A stretch of DNA of 39,768 nt. Source: Erysipelotrichales bacterium (lineage in GTDB: Bacteria > Bacillota_I > Bacilli_A > RFN20 > CAG-826). Of this stretch, positions 34,305 to 39,656 are shown piece after piece. The notes beneath the pieces were generated by a model. The model was not told the DNA's origin. It searched no databases and saw only the letters and a list, made by a program, of their open reading frames with translations. Position 1 is the first letter of the stretch. Each line of letters starts with the position of its first letter. The DNA lies in contig JAFLVA010000003.1 of assembly GCA_022508525.1 (NCBI GenBank), positions 1-39,768 on the forward strand, in the 5' to 3' direction. Position numbers and translations under genes: made by a program.

Positions 34305-35426
34305 TTATCTTTTGGAAATTAGAATTAATGGAACTAGCATCTCTTCTGTTAGTGATCCATGATGTCCTTTATGGCGGTGTGCTAATTCTCCAAGTAACAT
34401 AATTTTATTATTTTTAGAAATTGCAATATAATCCGCAAGTAAATATGCTTTATCTAAATTATCTATTGGACCAAATACTTTTTGATTAATTAAATCTTTG
34501 GTTTCAAATAGTTCAAAGTCTTCACTATATTTTTCGTTAAATAGTTTAATAAATTTATCATTACATCCTTCTTTTATTTTAAAAGCTGGAGCACGTGATT
34601 CTAAGAATACTGGCCAACTTAAAAGAGAAAGTAACTTTTCATCTTTATAAAGTTCGATATAATCACTTACATCAACTTGTCCATGATCTGCAGTAATAAT
34701 AAATAATGTATCTTCTACTGAGTCATATAATTCTTTTAATTTTAGATTTAAGTAATTAATTGTGATTTTACTCTCAAGAGATAAAACCCCATATTCATGC
34801 ATCATATGATCTGGTTCAGGACAATATAGATAGACAAATTGTTTTCCTTCTTTTTCACATATTGCTTTAGTCAATGAAAAATAATCATCAATATCAGAGG
34901 CAACATATTTATTTAAATCTTCTCCATCTGTCCAATAGATAGGGACTACTTTACTAATCGTGTAATCCGTATTTGCATATTTATAAAATGGCTCAGTAGG
35001 AATAATATTCGTTTTATAGCTTTGATCTACTGGCTCTTTAGTATGTGAGTTAACACCAGGAAATACATCTACTGCTACTTTAAGTTCATCAAAATATAAA
35101 CTCCAACCAAACCAACCATGTTCCATAGGATATTTATTAGTTAACATTGTCGTAGTTGCGTTCGCAGTAGTAGATGGAAATACTGATGTTAGTACTTCTT
35201 TAATATTTGACTTCATAAATGAATCATCTTTTAGATTAATATTAATAGGATTAATTCCTAGTCCATCAAATATTATAAATACAACATTTTTATAATTCTT
35301 CTTTAATTCTTCTTTTAATATTGGAAGAGTTGCATTGTTATTTGGGCAATTCAAAAATTCTGCAAGTGTTGCAGATATATTTAGTATGCTTTTATTAAAG
35401 TTAGGAAAAATAAACCTACTAGACAT
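34305..35426 (-). CDS. Type I phosphodiesterase / nucleotide pyrophosphatase family protein
   Basis: Alkaline-phosphatase-superfamily hydrolase, 373 residues, without signal peptide. Dimetal and nucleophile motifs: VFIIFDGLG near residue 50 (Asp ligand), SVFPSTTANATTTMLT near 85 (Thr nucleophile), CPEPDHMMHEYG, TADHGQVD and HKGHHGSLTEEMLVPL. These match the phosphodiest family that includes nucleotide pyrophosphatases. Likely acts on a phosphodiester or pyrophosphate compound in the cytoplasm. It starts 5 nt after the CBS-pair gene, so the two are co-transcribed; the CBS protein could sense an adenine nucleotide related to the enzyme's substrate (inference). Confidence 0.88.
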   Translation of the reverse strand: MSSRFIFPNFNKSILNISATLAEFLNCPNNNATLPILKEELKKNYKNVVFIIFDGLGINPININLKDDSFMKSNIKEVLTSVFPSTTANATTTMLTNKYPMEHGWFGWSLYFDELKVAVDVFPGVNSHTKEPVDQSYKTNIIPTEPFYKYANTDYTISKVVPIYWTDGEDLNKYVASDIDDYFSLTKAICEKEGKQFVYLYCPEPDHMMHEYGVLSLESKITINYLNLKLKELYDSVEDTLFIITADHGQVDVSDYIELYKDEKLLSLLSWPVFLESRAPAFKIKEGCNDKFIKLFNEKYSEDFELFETKDLINQKVFGPIDNLDKAYLLADYIAISKNNKIMLLGELAHRHKGHHGSLTEEMLVPLILISKR

Positions 35427-35431
35427 ATTTA

Positions 35432-35857
35432 TTATTCCTCACTTAAATCTATTTCTTTATTGCTATATAAGTATTTAATAATACTTTTTCTTTTTACAAT
35501 ACCAATAAAAATACCTCTATCATCTACAACTGGAACAAAGTTTTGCTCTAATGATAATTTAAAGAGTTTCTTGATATCCATATTAATTTCAAAAGGTTCA
35601 TATGGACGATATTTTTCAATATTTGCAATGCTTTCTTTTTCTGCTACTTCAAGATTAAATTTGCTTTTATTTTTAATATATCTTAAGATATCACCTTCAG
35701 ATATAGTAGATATAAATTTACCGTCTTCATCCACTAAAGGAACAACACTAAATTTATGAGAATCTAGTTTCTCTAAAACTTGTCTAATTGTTGATTTATG
35801 ATCTAAATAAAAAGTTTGAGCCTTTGGAGTTAAAAAACTAAATAAAGTAACAGACAT
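35432..35857 (-). CDS. CBS-domain pair protein
   Basis: A 141-residue protein made of two CBS domains (about 8-65 and 80-135), with VPLVDEDGKFISTISEGDILRYI and VPVVDDRGIFIGIVKRKSIIKYL as the paired signature strands. CBS pairs bind adenosyl ligands such as AMP, ATP, SAM or c-di-AMP and act as sensors. ATG follows AGGGGG. First gene of a two-gene unit with the downstream phosphodiesterase. Confidence 0.88.
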   Translation of the reverse strand: MSVTLFSFLTPKAQTFYLDHKSTIRQVLEKLDSHKFSVVPLVDEDGKFISTISEGDILRYIKNKSKFNLEVAEKESIANIEKYRPYEPFEINMDIKKLFKLSLEQNFVPVVDDRGIFIGIVKRKSIIKYLYSNKEIDLSEE

Positions 35858-35882
35858 GATTATGAACCCCCTAAATTAAATA

Positions 35883-35936
35883 ATTAGATATTTTAATATC
35901 TAATATAATTATATAAAATTTATGTGGTATTATCTA
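35883..35936 (-). promoter_or_regulatory. Promoter of the CBS-phosphodiesterase operon with perfect inverted repeat
   Basis: Minus strand: -35 TAGATA (35931-35936), 17-nt spacer, perfect -10 TATAAT (35908-35913). Directly downstream, over the expected start, is a perfect 10-bp inverted repeat with arms ATTAGATATT and AATATCTAAT (35883-35904). The half-site resembles that in front of trkA (core ATATYTAR). Confidence 0.55.
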
Positions 35937-36091
35937 TATTGATATAATTTAATTATCAAAGCGCACGCAATTTGTGAATTTTTAATTGATAAAATGTCTT
36001 ATCACAAAATTTTTAATAATATCGATTGCCAAATATGTAGTGAAACTTTTCACGTAAGCTTTTCTACGAGGATGTATCTCGTTACTTAGTA
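35937..36091. other. Non-coding stretch without recognised features
   Basis: About 150 AT-rich bases between two divergently organised minus-strand units. There are short local hairpins (GAAACTTTTC near 36043-36052, and TACGAGGATGTATCTCGTTA near 36066-36085) but no frame with a ribosome site. Confidence 0.5.
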
Positions 36092-36124
36092 TAAAAAAAA
36101 GACACGATTTTAATTTCGTGTCTC
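36092..36124 (-). terminator. Terminator at the end of the ImmA-type locus
   Basis: Minus strand: AGACACGA pairs with TCGTGTCT around an 8-nt loop, then eight T. It directly follows the possible 23-residue peptide. Confidence 0.9.
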
Positions 36125-36194
36125 AAAAATATAAAAAGGTTACACTGTCAATATGTCCACCTTTAATGGTTATTTCATATAATTGTTTTAACAC
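36123..36194 (-). CDS. Possible 23-residue peptide
   Basis: GTG start with a perfect AGGAGGTG site 5 nt upstream (36200-36207) and a stop overlapping the terminator stem. The peptide begins MLKQLYEITIKGGHIDS and ends VTFLYF; it is not a membrane span and is unknown to me. The strong ribosome site and terminator suggest that this short unit is expressed. Its stop is TGA, which no larger gene in the window uses. It lies 58 nt beyond the acidic membrane protein, so it may be the last cistron of that operon. Confidence 0.45.
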   Translation of the reverse strand: MLKQLYEITIKGGHIDSVTFLYF

Positions 36195-36251
36195 TTTAAC
36201 ACCTCCTATTTTATTTGCTAAGTATTAAAAAAGCCAATTTTATTGAATGGA

Positions 36252-36767
36252 CTAGTTATTATCGTTTTTATTTTTCCAATATTCGCCAAAATTTTTGAGA
36301 GTATTTGAAATAATTTCTAAAACCTTATTATCTTTTCTATTAAACAAATATTCAAATAATATTTTTAAAAGCCCTAAACTTTCCACTACAAGGGCAACAA
36401 ATGCAGAGATGTAAACACCCATATCTAGTTCAAAAACAAACGCCAATATAGTTATAGCAATTATCAATATATAACTTATGATTATTAAACTAAAAATTAA
36501 TTTAGAATAGCACGCACGTCTTTCTCTTATAAACTTTTCTTCCGCTTCAAAAGAATCTTTCATTTGTTTCATTAAATCAGAGTATGCCTCTGAAGGATTT
36601 TGATATGCTTTAACATCTAAGTCTATTTTTTCTACGTCTGCTTCATCAAAATCAAAATCATCTAAATCCAAATCAAAATCAAAATCATCTAAATCTATCT
36701 CATCTGATGAATCTATGTCAAAATTATCTATAGATTCTGGCGTAAGTGTTTCTTTTTCATCACACAT
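36252..36767 (-). CDS. Aspartate-rich membrane protein
   Basis: A 171-residue protein of unknown family. Residues 15-55 are an acidic run with repeats such as DLDDFDFD. A helical linker follows, then two hydrophobic spans at about 90-112 and 116-140 and a charged tail. ATG at 36767 has TTGGAG 8 nt upstream; a GTG at 36776 would touch that site. It begins 19 nt after the stop of the ImmA/IrrE-type peptidase gene, so the two form one operon. A substrate or anchor for the peptidase is one possibility, not shown by the sequence. Confidence 0.7.
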   Translation of the reverse strand: MCDEKETLTPESIDNFDIDSSDEIDLDDFDFDLDLDDFDFDEADVEKIDLDVKAYQNPSEAYSDLMKQMKDSFEAEEKFIRERRACYSKLIFSLIIISYILIIAITILAFVFELDMGVYISAFVALVVESLGLLKILFEYLFNRKDNKVLEIISNTLKNFGEYWKNKNDNN

Positions 36768-36786
36768 AATACACACTCCAACGCAT

Positions 36787-37362
36787 TTAATCTGCTAAAA
36801 GATCTAATCTTGTTTTGACAGCCACTTTATCTACACCAAAAAACACTGACATTTCATCATCGCTAAACACTTTTTTTAGTTCTTTTATTTTAGTGCTTGG
36901 CATTAATAATTCAAGTGCAAATATATTCGCATACTGTTCTCTTTGTAGATATTTATTTTTATCAGTATCAGAATCAGGAATAGAAAAAAGGCGATAATTA
37001 ATATGCGAACTAACAACTAATTTATCTTTGAAATCTTCAGTTGTATATTCATCAAATAAAATATGACCAAATTCATGCATCAAAGAAAATCTTTGAAATA
37101 CAGGATCTTTATCACTGTTTAAGTAAATTCTCGCAATGTTTCTAGTAACACCTTTTGTACGCACCATCATAGCGCCAAAATCTTCAAGTTCCTTTTTTAA
37201 ATCTTTAAATGAAATTTTATAAACTTTTATATCAATCTTTTTTATAATCTCAATGTAATCTAAGCATGCTTGAGTATTGACCATTTCTTTTCCATCGTAT
37301 CTAATGCCACTCAAAATATTTTTTACTACATTCTTAATTTCATTAATTTTTTTCTGGTCCAT
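36787..37362 (-). CDS. ImmA/IrrE-family metallopeptidase
   Basis: Zinc metallopeptidase of 191 residues with the HExxH motif HEFGH at 96-100 and the following ILFDE. The flanking SLMHEFGHILFDEY and REQYANIFALELLMP segments are typical of the ImmA/IrrE (DUF955) group. Members cleave repressors or anti-repressors, as ImmA of ICEBs1 and IrrE of Deinococcus do, and usually neighbour an XRE regulator. None is intact here. ATG at 37362 has GAGGAG 11 nt upstream; a GTG at 37374 has no space for one. The end FFGVDKVAVKTRLDLL is a short HTH-like helix pair often seen in the family. Confidence 0.88.
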   Translation of the reverse strand: MDQKKINEIKNVVKNILSGIRYDGKEMVNTQACLDYIEIIKKIDIKVYKISFKDLKKELEDFGAMMVRTKGVTRNIARIYLNSDKDPVFQRFSLMHEFGHILFDEYTTEDFKDKLVVSSHINYRLFSIPDSDTDKNKYLQREQYANIFALELLMPSTKIKELKKVFSDDEMSVFFGVDKVAVKTRLDLLAD

Positions 37363-37367
37363 ATTTA

Positions 37368-37439
37368 TTAGCACTCCTCAATCAGCTCCTTTTTAAGTTT
37401 TTTATTACTTATGTAGTTTAGACTCGAAATAGACTTCAT
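37368..37439 (-). CDS. Possible 23-residue leader peptide or gene remnant before ImmA
   Basis: ATG at 37439, 23 codons (begins MKSISSLNYIS, ends KKELIEEC), with the stop 5 nt before the ImmA ATG. The last codons contain the ImmA ribosome sites AAGGAG and GAGGAG, so translation would be coupled. Its own ribosome site is poor. It may be the C-terminal remnant of an upstream XRE gene of the kind normally paired with ImmA. Confidence 0.25.
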   Translation of the reverse strand: MKSISSLNYISNKKLKKELIEEC

Positions 37440-37724
37440 AATCAATTATCATCTTAAAAAAGAGAAAATGATACACCAACTAATAACTACGACAGGCGTA
37501 TCAAATAACAAATTTAGATAGAGTTTATATTTTAGGCTTTTCGAGCCACCCAAGCTTTATGCCCTCTATCCTCAATTACATATTAACCCATTTTGGAAGT
37601 AATTGCAAATAGTAATTTTCCACATAGTTTTCCACAATCAATGATATAAATTACATAAGTAATTTATATTATTAAATATAACTTAATACAATTATATATA
37701 AAACTTTTTTATACATTTAGAACT
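37440..37724. other. Non-coding region with DnaA-box-like repeats and palindromes
   Basis: No supported gene. It holds two direct copies of TTTTCCACA (37616-37624 and 37628-37636, 12 bp apart), a perfect inverted repeat with arms ATAAATTAC/GTAATTTAT (37646-37667), and a foldable element with outer arms GATAGAG/CTCTATC (37517-37523, 37564-37570) enclosing GGCT/AGCC. The ImmA promoter must be here but no clear -35/-10 pair was found. Confidence 0.45.
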
Positions 37725-37756
37725 CAAAAAAGCATCTTATCAAAATGATAAAATGC
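37725..37756 (-). terminator. Terminator of the small membrane peptide gene
   Basis: Eleven-pair stem on the minus strand, GCATTTTATCA/TGATAAGATGC, with a 3-nt loop and a following T run, 16 nt past the peptide stop. Confidence 0.9.
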
Positions 37757-37771
37757 CTCTTTTAGACTAGT

Positions 37772-37939
37772 CTAGCATGCAGATTTCCCAGAAAAATTTA
37801 GTGAATAATTCAAAGTCAAATTAAGTGTTCTAAAATTATAATCATCTCTATTTCTATCTTTAATTGATACCAAAATCGACACAATTATGCTTATTATGGT
37901 GATGAACATAGAGACGACATCAATTAATCTATCATTCAA
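37772..37939 (-). CDS. Small single-span peptide, type I toxin-like
   Basis: 55 codons from TTG at 37939 with GAGG 8 nt upstream. After MNDRLID the peptide has one hydrophobic span (about residues 8-26: VVSMFITIISIIVSILVSI), then a charged segment KDRNRDD and a polar tail. Size, single span close to the N-terminus, basic/acidic tail and a strong terminator directly after are the shape of Fst/TxpA/BsrG-type toxins. Sequence identity with a known family is not claimed. It overlaps a 24-codon frame just upstream. Confidence 0.45.
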   Translation of the reverse strand: MNDRLIDVVSMFITIISIIVSILVSIKDRNRDDYNFRTLNLTLNYSLNFSGKSAC

Positions 37940-38010
37940 TAATTTGTCCTCTTTAAAGATGCTTCAATACCTATAAAATTCAACTTCATTAAATGCTGCA
38001 TAATTACCAT
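37936..38010 (-). CDS. Possible 24-residue peptide upstream of the toxin-like peptide
   Basis: ATG at 38010 with AAGGGGGAAA 7 nt upstream, 24 codons ending in TGA that overlaps the TTG start of the next peptide (37939). The overlap and strong ribosome site suggest a coupled leader frame. The peptide (begins MVIMQHLMKLNFIG) has no recognisable feature. Confidence 0.35.
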   Translation of the reverse strand: MVIMQHLMKLNFIGIEASLKRTNY

Positions 38011-38132
38011 AATATTTCCCCCTTAATAATTTAGTAGAATCATCCTCTAAAACATTTCTAGATCTCTACACTATTATTATATGTACAATATGTAAAAGTA
38101 TTTCGGTATAATTTAAAAAAATTTTTATTCAT

Positions 38133-38167
38133 CAAAAAAGAGGAGTCTCTACTCCTCTAATTTTTTT
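38133..38167 (-). terminator. Bidirectional terminator
   Basis: Perfect stem AGAGGAGT/ACTCCTCT with a CTCT loop (38139-38158), T-rich on both sides. It closes the minus-strand remnant at 38199-38796. Confidence 0.88.
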
Positions 38168-38198
38168 CGTTCTGCATCGAGCTTCGTTTGTTGACTTT

Positions 38199-38426
38199 TT
38201 AATTTCTTTCGATTCTATAAAGTTCAACAAAAGCACCTGATAAGGCTAATGTAAAAAGAAATCCCAATAAATTAAATTTCCCTGTAGAATCATAATCTAA
38301 GCCAACTTTAATAATACCGATTATAAGTACAAGAGCAACAATTAATAATAGACTATTAATTCCCAACTTTTTTAACCATGCAATAATCTTAAAAATACTT
38401 TCTTCACTTTTTTCTTCTATATTAAT
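38199..38426 (-). CDS. Small two-span membrane protein without a normal start
   Basis: An open run of 75 codons. After an acidic stretch (NIEEKSEES) there are two hydrophobic spans (about 24-41 and 53-66), then ELYRIERN. No ATG, GTG or TTG lies at its beginning in frame; TGA closes the frame just upstream. GAGGG at 38427-38431 would serve an ATA or ATT codon. Its beginning overlaps the stop of the decayed gene upstream. It may be a remnant or use a rare start. Confidence 0.35.
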   Translation of the reverse strand: MNIEEKSEESIFKIIAWLKKLGINSLLLIVALVLIIGIIKVGLDYDSTGKFNLLGFLFTLALSGAFVELYRIERN

Positions 38427-38796
38427 CCCTCATTTCAACATTCAAATAAACTTTTGAAAAATTAACTAGTTTATCATACTCAGTAATTATCTTAGATGCA
38501 ATCAATATATCAAAATTCCCATCATCACGCAAGGTAGCTAATGCTACTTGCCAACCATCTCCAACATATAACTTTTCAGTATCCGTTGTATCAACAGATA
38601 TTTATAAACAATTATGTGAAAACAATGTAGAAATAGTACATTTAGGATGATAGCATTTTGTAGGACTTATAAAATCACCTTTCGAAACTTTAAAGTGCGA
38701 GTCTATTGACAAAACATACAATTGCATGTTCTTATTCGATGTAACAAGCAAAAAATCTAAAAGTCCATCATTAAAAATGTATTTTTTACCGACTGT
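38422..38796 (-). pseudogene. Decayed gene with internal TAA and no start
   Basis: 125 codons on the minus strand with one internal TAA at 38602-38604. The two parts read naturally together (KKYIFNDGLLDFLLVTSNKN and KLYVGDGWQVALATLRDDGN) and the second ends NVEMRD. A stop just upstream (GTT TAA) and the lack of a start codon indicate loss of the N-terminus. Family not recognised. The region borders the promoter of the SDR gene, whose insertion or rearrangement may have removed the 5' part. Confidence 0.45.
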
Positions 38797-38830
38797 TTTT
38801 TAAACTTAAAGTTTTTTATGATAATATTAA

Positions 38831-38836
38831 TATAAT
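38831..38836 (+). promoter_or_regulatory. -10 element of the SDR gene
   Basis: Perfect TATAAT only 14 nt before the ATG at 38850, so the leader would be very short but still include GAGG. The -35 is poor. Confidence 0.4.
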
Positions 38837-38849
38837 AGAGGTAATGTTT

Positions 38850-39656
38850 ATGGAAAAGAAGTATGTGTTAGTAACAGGTGCTTATGGTGGATTAGGAAGA
38901 GCGGTTGTAAATAGTTTACTTGATAATGGATTTACTGTATTTGCAACTGATTTAAGAATAGATGATTCAATGAAAAATGAATCACTTATTCCTATTAAAG
39001 TAGATGTCACTAATGATGAAGATATAAATAATGCTTATATTGAAGTATCAAAACATACTGATTGGTTATATGCAATTATTAATTTAGCAGGAATATTCTA
39101 TCTAGATTCAATTGTAGAAGGTGAAGAAAGTAAACTTCGCCGCATTATTGAAACTAACTTTTTTGGCACATATAAAATGAATAAGAAATTTATGCCTTTA
39201 CTTAAAAGTAAGAAAAGTAGAATTATTAATATAACAAGTGAATTAGCGGGTTATTCTCCTCAACCATTTATGGGATATTATACTATTTCAAAAGGAATGT
39301 TAGATATTTATACTGATGTATTAAGAAGAGAATTAAATTATTTATGTATAAAAGTAATTAAAATACATTCTGGCTCATTTAAAACAAAATTATTAGCGAA
39401 CGCAAGTGATGAATATGATAGATTAATAAATAAAACTGAACATTATAAAAATCAATTAACTAAACTAAAATTTATGATGGATAAAGAATTAAAAAAAGAA
39501 AACAATCCTAATAAATTTGCTAAGCAAATTATTAAGATTGTTAATAAGAAAAATCCTAAAATACGCTATAGTATTAATCGTAGTTTTGGTTTGAGATTGT
39601 TATCTGCTTTGCCAGAAAAATGGCAGGATAAGGTGTATTTGATATTTATTAAATAA
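38850..39656 (+). CDS. Short-chain dehydrogenase/reductase (SDR)
   Basis: NAD(P)-dependent oxidoreductase of 268 residues. The cofactor motif is TGAYGGLG (9-16), NLAG near 78-81, and the catalytic Ser130 (NITSEL), Tyr144 and Lys148 (YTISK) are all in place. A basic C-terminal extension (about 190-268) goes beyond the core fold. ATG at 38850 has GAGG 8 nt upstream; the ATG 6 nt earlier is too close. Substrate unknown. Confidence 0.9.
   Translation: MEKKYVLVTGAYGGLGRAVVNSLLDNGFTVFATDLRIDDSMKNESLIPIKVDVTNDEDINNAYIEVSKHTDWLYAIINLAGIFYLDSIVEGEESKLRRIIETNFFGTYKMNKKFMPLLKSKKSRIINITSELAGYSPQPFMGYYTISKGMLDIYTDVLRRELNYLCIKVIKIHSGSFKTKLLANASDEYDRLINKTEHYKNQLTKLKFMMDKELKKENNPNKFAKQIIKIVNKKNPKIRYSINRSFGLRLLSALPEKWQDKVYLIFIK

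Follow-up and report, generated by a model that had tools for sequence, protein, structure and literature searches.

ImmA/IrrE peptidases are commonly regarded as repressor-cleaving enzymes. In the ImmA/ImmR system of ICEBs1 and in COG2856-Xre modules, a short stand-alone M78 peptidase forms a patchily distributed two-gene operon with an XRE repressor. The accessible part of PMC2701414 describes COG2856 peptidases with Xre, RelE and PIN partners and contains no membrane partner. For PprI, a relative of these enzymes, the accessible part of PMC10904395 gives single-stranded DNA as the trigger of cleavage and cites the same for CapP. The pair described here, located on the minus strand of a 39,768-nt window (the whole stretch of DNA that was analysed, from an Erysipelotrichales bacterium), resembled the ImmA/ImmR and COG2856-Xre modules in its short stand-alone M78 peptidase, two-gene layout and patchy distribution; in contrast, its partner was a two-span membrane protein, and no XRE gene adjoined it. 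The peptidase gene was followed by the two-span gene, a 23-codon ORF and a terminator (Table 1).

Table 1 Features of the locus, in window coordinates
Feature	Position	Strand	Details and basis
ImmA/IrrE (M78) zinc peptidase	36787..37362	-	191 aa; ATG at 37362; HEFGH = residues 96-100, E142
Ribosome-binding site GAGGAG of the peptidase	37374..37379	-	11 nt upstream of ATG; read from sequence
Two-span membrane protein	36252..36776	-	N-terminal D-rich stretch, YLFNRKDNK after span 2; hydropathy, charges; homologues behind peptidases
Degenerate 6-bp tandem repeat	36645..36697	.	under part of the D-rich stretch; Tandem Repeats Finder
23-codon ORF	36123..36194	-	GTG start, AGGAGG at 36202-36207 (7 nt before GTG); sequence, motif count
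Intrinsic terminator behind the 23-codon ORF	36099..36124	-	-11.9 kcal/mol, z -4.5, 0/200 shuffles as stable

The assignment of the first gene to the ImmA/IrrE type, made in a preliminary description of this DNA, was borne out by a match to Pfam PF06114 Peptidase_M78 (E=2e-17, 63.6 bits against a cut-off of 22) and by the HExxH motif with a downstream Glu, which were present in the window peptidase and in all 12 peptidases of an alignment (A11) where H96, E97, H100 and E142 were invariant. The peptidase of G225, with HEIGR, and a remnant in G265 lay outside A11; the M78 domain was found in 12 of the 12 pair peptidases scanned. The AF2 model of the window peptidase was poor (pLDDT 46.0), and a fold search with it ranked IrrE/PprI structures at the top with E values of 0.012 and 0.014, both above 0.001. 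A PDB sequence search with the peptidase gave no match at E 0.1. An N-terminal motif, IWMC[IKR]E, was common to the family-f16 peptidases at L026, L040, L042 and L043. The proposed 23-codon remnant upstream of the peptidase (stop-to-stop 37371-37445) showed no ribosome site by eye, leaving that claim without support.

The partner was an acidic protein of 174 aa if read from the GTG at 36776 and of 171 aa from an in-frame ATG at 36767, which is probably the actual start because GGAG, as read from the sequence, sits 8 nt before it. Hydropathy placed the hydrophobic spans at residues 97-115 and 123-141, separated by a 7-residue loop. Since the 20 residues before span 1 were more positive than the loop (+1 versus -2), both termini were predicted to be cytoplasmic, on the same side as the peptidase. 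No family scored above a curated cut-off with this protein, its PADLOC and PHROG matches were weak only, and its AF2 model was poor (pLDDT 53.7). The preliminary view of a D-rich two-span protein was right about the two spans and the acidity, but the acidic tail was not shared among partners: the N-terminal net charge was -21 in the window protein versus -7 to +6 in 12 others and +2 in G225. Part of the D-rich stretch was underlain by two overlapping repeat arrays (36645-36687 and 36660-36697; Tandem Repeats Finder scores 52 and 34), and, judged by these charges, the stretch is a peculiarity of the window copy, not a part of the module.

The pair recurred in other genomes. A class-wide search of 395 genomes with the window peptidase reached three others at E<=1e-6; a two-span gene lay behind the peptidase in G389 and G419 and was absent in G263, which carried a close stand-alone peptidase. 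A three-row two-span profile run on 392 genomes of the phylum returned 15 places outside the profile's own, ten of which were inspected (L029, L030, L032, L035 and L037 were left out). It added five genes with a peptidase, or what remains of one, in front (G275, G265, G011, G557 and G246); this was so at L023, L024, L025, L026 and L034 and not at L027, L028, L031, L033 and L036. An eight-row profile brought six further pairs (G711, G704, G709, G725, G723 and G291) and also matched L045 and L046 at about 1e-6, within frames of 1219 and 354 aa; a two-span fragment at L050 had no peptidase beside it. With a fixed 13-row profile, 54 of the 395 genomes passed E 0.001 and eight reached at least 98 bits; these eight were themselves rows of the profile. 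After a gap came G225 at 31 bits, which was not a row and whose peptidase scored 97 bits against the peptidase profile; G542, a weaker match, held no pair on inspection. In a separate search, two-span matches in 12 other genomes of the family were weak, at 21 bits or less. In G265 the ORF in front was a 98-aa remnant scoring 19 bits against the C-terminal part of the peptidase profile, and tblastn for the peptidase gave no match there.

In total, 14 pairs including that of the window (families f1, f6, f14, f16 and f19) and one remnant pair (f12) gave 15 places in six families, so that looking for the pair elsewhere, as the preliminary description had suggested, yielded 13 other genomes plus one behind a peptidase remnant and did not refute the proposed pairing. 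The class holding all 15 places was probably Bacilli because of the names of three carriers, Faecalibacillus faecis (G557), Erysipelatoclostridium sp. An173 (G711) and Thomasclavelia saccharogumia DSM 17460 (G704). Hydropathy gave two membrane spans in 14 of 14 partner proteins, and searches with profiles of the two-span protein alone, which carry no information on the peptidase, led to genes situated behind peptidases. The pairing of the peptidase with a two-span gene was solid. Viral contigs held no relatives of either single protein or of the two profiles, genome contigs none of the window peptidase, plasmids none of the two-span proteins of the window and G557, and phages none of the G557 two-span protein; distant ImmA-like matches numbered 23 in phage records (up to 36.5% identity) and one in plasmids. 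The pair was not described in the literature searched and none of four family libraries showed the pairing; this is an M78 peptidase in a pairing that those sources do not show.

Gene spacing pointed to a unit. In ten of the 14 loci it ranged from -14 to +18 bp, with overlaps of 4-14 bp in seven and gaps of 10-18 bp in three; the window spacing becomes +19 if the ATG start is taken, and that of G225 was +1. The other four loci comprised a broken two-span gene (G711), gaps of 138 bp (G389) and 297 bp (G723), and G704, where the peptidase has an in-frame stop and its later part reaches to within a few bases of the two-span gene. Among 168 ORFs of at least 150 aa in the 14 neighbourhoods, taken as longest-ORF picks rather than gene calls, eight had a two-span ORF of 100-200 aa directly downstream, and all eight were these peptidases. 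Peptidase and two-span distances correlated (Mantel test, r=0.77, 11 pairs, 0/20,000 permutations); the f16 clade drove part of this, and without it r was 0.59 on six pairs, as a correlation value alone. An unrelated membrane gene that merely travels with the peptidase by chance would fit the low identity of the partners to the window protein (14-31%) and their lack of a known function, but the repeated linkage, the overlaps, the parallel divergence and the fact that none of the other 160 ORFs had such a neighbour make this neutral co-inheritance the least probable of the readings weighed here. In the two-span tree the window grouped with f19 genomes and not with G011 of its own family; since support was low (0.41) and the peptidase tree placed the window elsewhere, horizontal transfer of the pair was only suggested.

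The absence of an XRE repressor, also part of the preliminary description, held locally. The 14 neighbourhoods, whose DNA was short on one side at several loci (0.7-5 kb), were scanned in six frames (1,634 segments) with a profile of twelve XRE domains from this genome; together with the G225 locus, the 15 loci contained no adjacent or fused XRE/HTH repressor of the kind that characterises ImmA/ImmR and CapP/CapH. Of three matching segments, two belonged to the G557 locus, about 6 kb away from its pair, and the third to the G709 locus at a distance of 831 bp, where the XRE gene is part of a separate cassette on the opposite strand that carries an ImmA-like gene itself. Around 12 of the 14 pairs, and in 3.4 kb of G225, there was no XRE-like segment. 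Elsewhere in this genome the claim did not hold: HTH_3 matched at 23 places, 20 of them above the cut-off, and on this contig the closest lay about 14 kb away from the pair; for this reason an unlinked XRE target has to be considered. The two-span protein might then serve as sensor or anchor in the membrane and switch the peptidase, whose substrate would be an XRE-type repressor encoded elsewhere; studied relatives cleave such repressors according to the accessible parts of PMC2701414 and PMC10904395. The scarcity of XRE-like segments around the pairs speaks against this, a mobile cassette that relies on an unlinked host repressor across several families seems less likely, and we consider this account doubtful. 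The peptidase also matched three other genomes of the family within frames of 351-380 aa, two of which showed an XRE-like N-terminus by eye.

The 23-codon ORF was probably translated, as judged from its motif context. AGGAGG occurred nine times in the window, and in seven cases a start codon followed at 4-10 nt. Six of these starts opened frames of at least 133 aa and the seventh was that of the 23-codon ORF, a pattern that makes its translation likelier than chance. The ribosome site and terminator seen in the preliminary description were good ones, as a three-part module with the 23-residue peptide as signal, inhibitor or effector would have it, but the peptide was present at only one of the 14 pair loci. 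The one other short ORF with a ribosome site within 260 bp behind the pairs, a 41-codon frame 187 bp on in G419, was unrelated. A 32-base pattern of the ORF, with up to three mismatches allowed, occurred in one of four genomes of the genus (its own) and was absent from the three sister genomes, and a peptide search in 220 genomes of the family (219 others) yielded only weak matches beyond its own locus, at six places (E between 0.135 and 0.949). The ORF is a local extra and not a conserved part of the module, and the three-part arrangement is very improbable.

The surroundings of the window pair include, 2.4 kb away, a CBASS of type II with genes for JAB, E1-E2, a cyclase and a SAVED-type effector. 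It extends from 39719 to contig position 43616 (L057:5720-9617), mostly beyond the window end, and the interval contains small ORFs and a dehydrogenase gene on the opposite strand. A helicase-like gene after the CBASS gave a weak DdmD match (E=3.9e-8). The sister genome G005 matched the window up to ~35960 and then diverged, with a Wadjet system there (L055:4421-9883; JetB, JetC, JetD and at least the C-terminal part of JetA) and the pair here; the site beside the CBS-domain gene is possibly an exchange hotspot. The Wadjet site also adjoins a 431-aa protein without a PADLOC match. In the one-contig genome G246, AbiD, AbiH, PDC-M62A/B and RdrB lay within 8 kb of the pair; PDC-M24A/B and a reverse transcriptase were near the G275 pair, and the G709 pair was accompanied by the XRE gene, the ImmA-like gene (capP, PDC-M69B and RmrA models) and a gene matching PDC-S70. 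Other copies lay by eye among housekeeping or mobile-element genes, such as groEL near G704 and uvrB near G265.

The neighbour survey covered 115 of 120 listed proteins at the 14 loci; three were left out as likely wrong-frame ORFs (L070:4114-4779, L072:7204-7731 and L072:8461-9618) and two for length (L074:3117-9461 and L075:1470-9227). Among the 25 of 47 families listed, each CBASS model matched one of the 115 proteins, in line with the window's own CBASS, and the matches listed also included five to mad3 (probably ABC ATPases) and one to PD-T4-2_B. Well-characterised defence systems thus stood in two of the 14 neighbourhoods (window and G246) and candidates in two more (G275 and G709), a count without a control. 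On these uncontrolled counts, a defence role is a good inference for the window copy and no more than a possibility for the family as a whole.

Several other features were seen around the window pair. Rfam gave no match at 35400-39000. On the minus strand, a 55-aa hydrophobic peptide ORF at 37772-37939 (TTG start, GAGG upstream by eye) was followed by a very strong hairpin within 37725-37775 (-18.2 kcal/mol, z -5.1), and the two by eye resembled a small type I toxin gene. At 38202-38601 (minus strand), two stretches that are open for 59 and 76 codons and lack a good ATG start, the second of them hydrophobic, were perhaps a decayed gene between the pair and the CBASS. A two-CBS-domain protein encoded at 35432-35857 (minus strand) resembled c-di-AMP-binding CbpB (62.6 bits; cut-off 125), and a phosphodiesterase-type gene at 34305-35426 adjoined it.

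The pair may be a mobile two-gene conflict cassette in which the peptidase acts on a latent membrane effector, a reading to which we assign a probability of about 0.4. In resting cells the hairpin protein would lie latent in the membrane; upon infection or DNA damage, the triggered peptidase would cleave its cytoplasmic N- or C-terminal part, and the cleaved protein would assemble and then depolarise or damage the membrane. The membrane effector would take the place of the repressor substrate of the classical pair, in a conflict system of anti-phage or abortive type. The two-span protein is a plausible target of the peptidase, and the conserved operon with a membrane hairpin as the only partner points to another substrate class; both the defence role and the direction of action are what we infer from the loci. 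No shared cleavage motif was seen in the partner tails, which differ widely in length and charge, and the two-span proteins had no clear match to any defence family. Of the preliminary idea of a membrane-linked regulatory or defence module, what survived was the recurrence of an XRE-less peptidase with a membrane partner and the location of the window copy among defence genes; the acidic tail, tiny peptide and upstream remnant dropped out of it.

Decayed copies bear on the direction of action. The peptidase was broken by an in-frame stop in G246 and G704, split in G723 and reduced to a remnant in G265, although sequencing errors could account for some of these breaks. An open two-span gene was kept beside the broken peptidase in G704 and G723, and in G246 with a tail altered by eye; G711 was the reverse case. 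From this pattern the membrane protein alone seems tolerated and not lethal. Alternatively, the two-span protein could be a membrane toxin and the peptidase an antitoxin that destroys or sequesters it, with the toxin acting once the peptidase is lost or inhibited. As in toxin-antitoxin modules, the two genes are small, often overlapping, patchy and often decayed, the operon is compact and its presence variable (eight of 395 genomes at >=98 bits), the surroundings in several genomes are mobile or defence-related (partly by eye), and the G265 remnant could still bind. The open two-span genes beside broken peptidases speak against a toxin that needs its antitoxin and favour a latent effector; we hold the toxin-antitoxin account unlikely, and activation of the membrane effector by the peptidase appears more likely than its neutralisation. 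The G225 peptidase (L103:972-1499) is possibly inactive, and since it has HEIGR instead of HExxH and G265 retains only a C-terminal remnant, proteolysis may be dispensable at some loci.

More tentatively still, the latent-effector reading could define a new class of protease-gated membrane immunity, in which an ImmA/IrrE peptidase, rather than freeing genes from a repressor, would cut a two-span effector directly and release its membrane-disrupting activity. If true, one damage-sensing protease family would drive both transcriptional and direct lethal responses. At ~1.1 kb, the pair makes cleavage, toxicity and phage protection directly testable.

Among known defence systems, CapP/CapH of CBASS supplied the best PADLOC match of the window peptidase (capP, E=1.7e-15), and a CBASS lies close by, but the partner there is an HTH protein and none was present here. 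RosmerTA, a proposed defence toxin-antitoxin pair, also contains an M78 domain in RmrA; however, the RmrA models span 357-400 positions, and the 191-aa window peptidase covered only their later part, weakly (E=9e-6) and without the XRE part, so that it differs from the XRE-M78 RmrA that pairs with the toxin RmrT. RmrT was not named among the PADLOC matches of the two-span protein. SLATT proteins are described in the accessible part of PMC7159879 as a two-span, predicted pore-forming effector class of conflict systems, and they share the two spans of the window partner with other 2TM effectors of CBASS and CRISPR. A SLATT model appeared neither in the window protein's own list nor among the 25 of 46 Pfam families listed for 13 members; sub-threshold matches of the two-span proteins went to DUF2207_C (nine of 13 members, best 1.7e-5), DUF4231 (three) and single 2TM/4TM effector models.

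Protease-activated bacterial gasdermins combine a protease with a latent membrane effector. The window pair would work alike and, if the latent-effector reading is confirmed, would be a protease-triggered membrane effector of comparable logic, with a different peptidase class, a helical hairpin in place of the gasdermin and an activation step that is so far a proposal.
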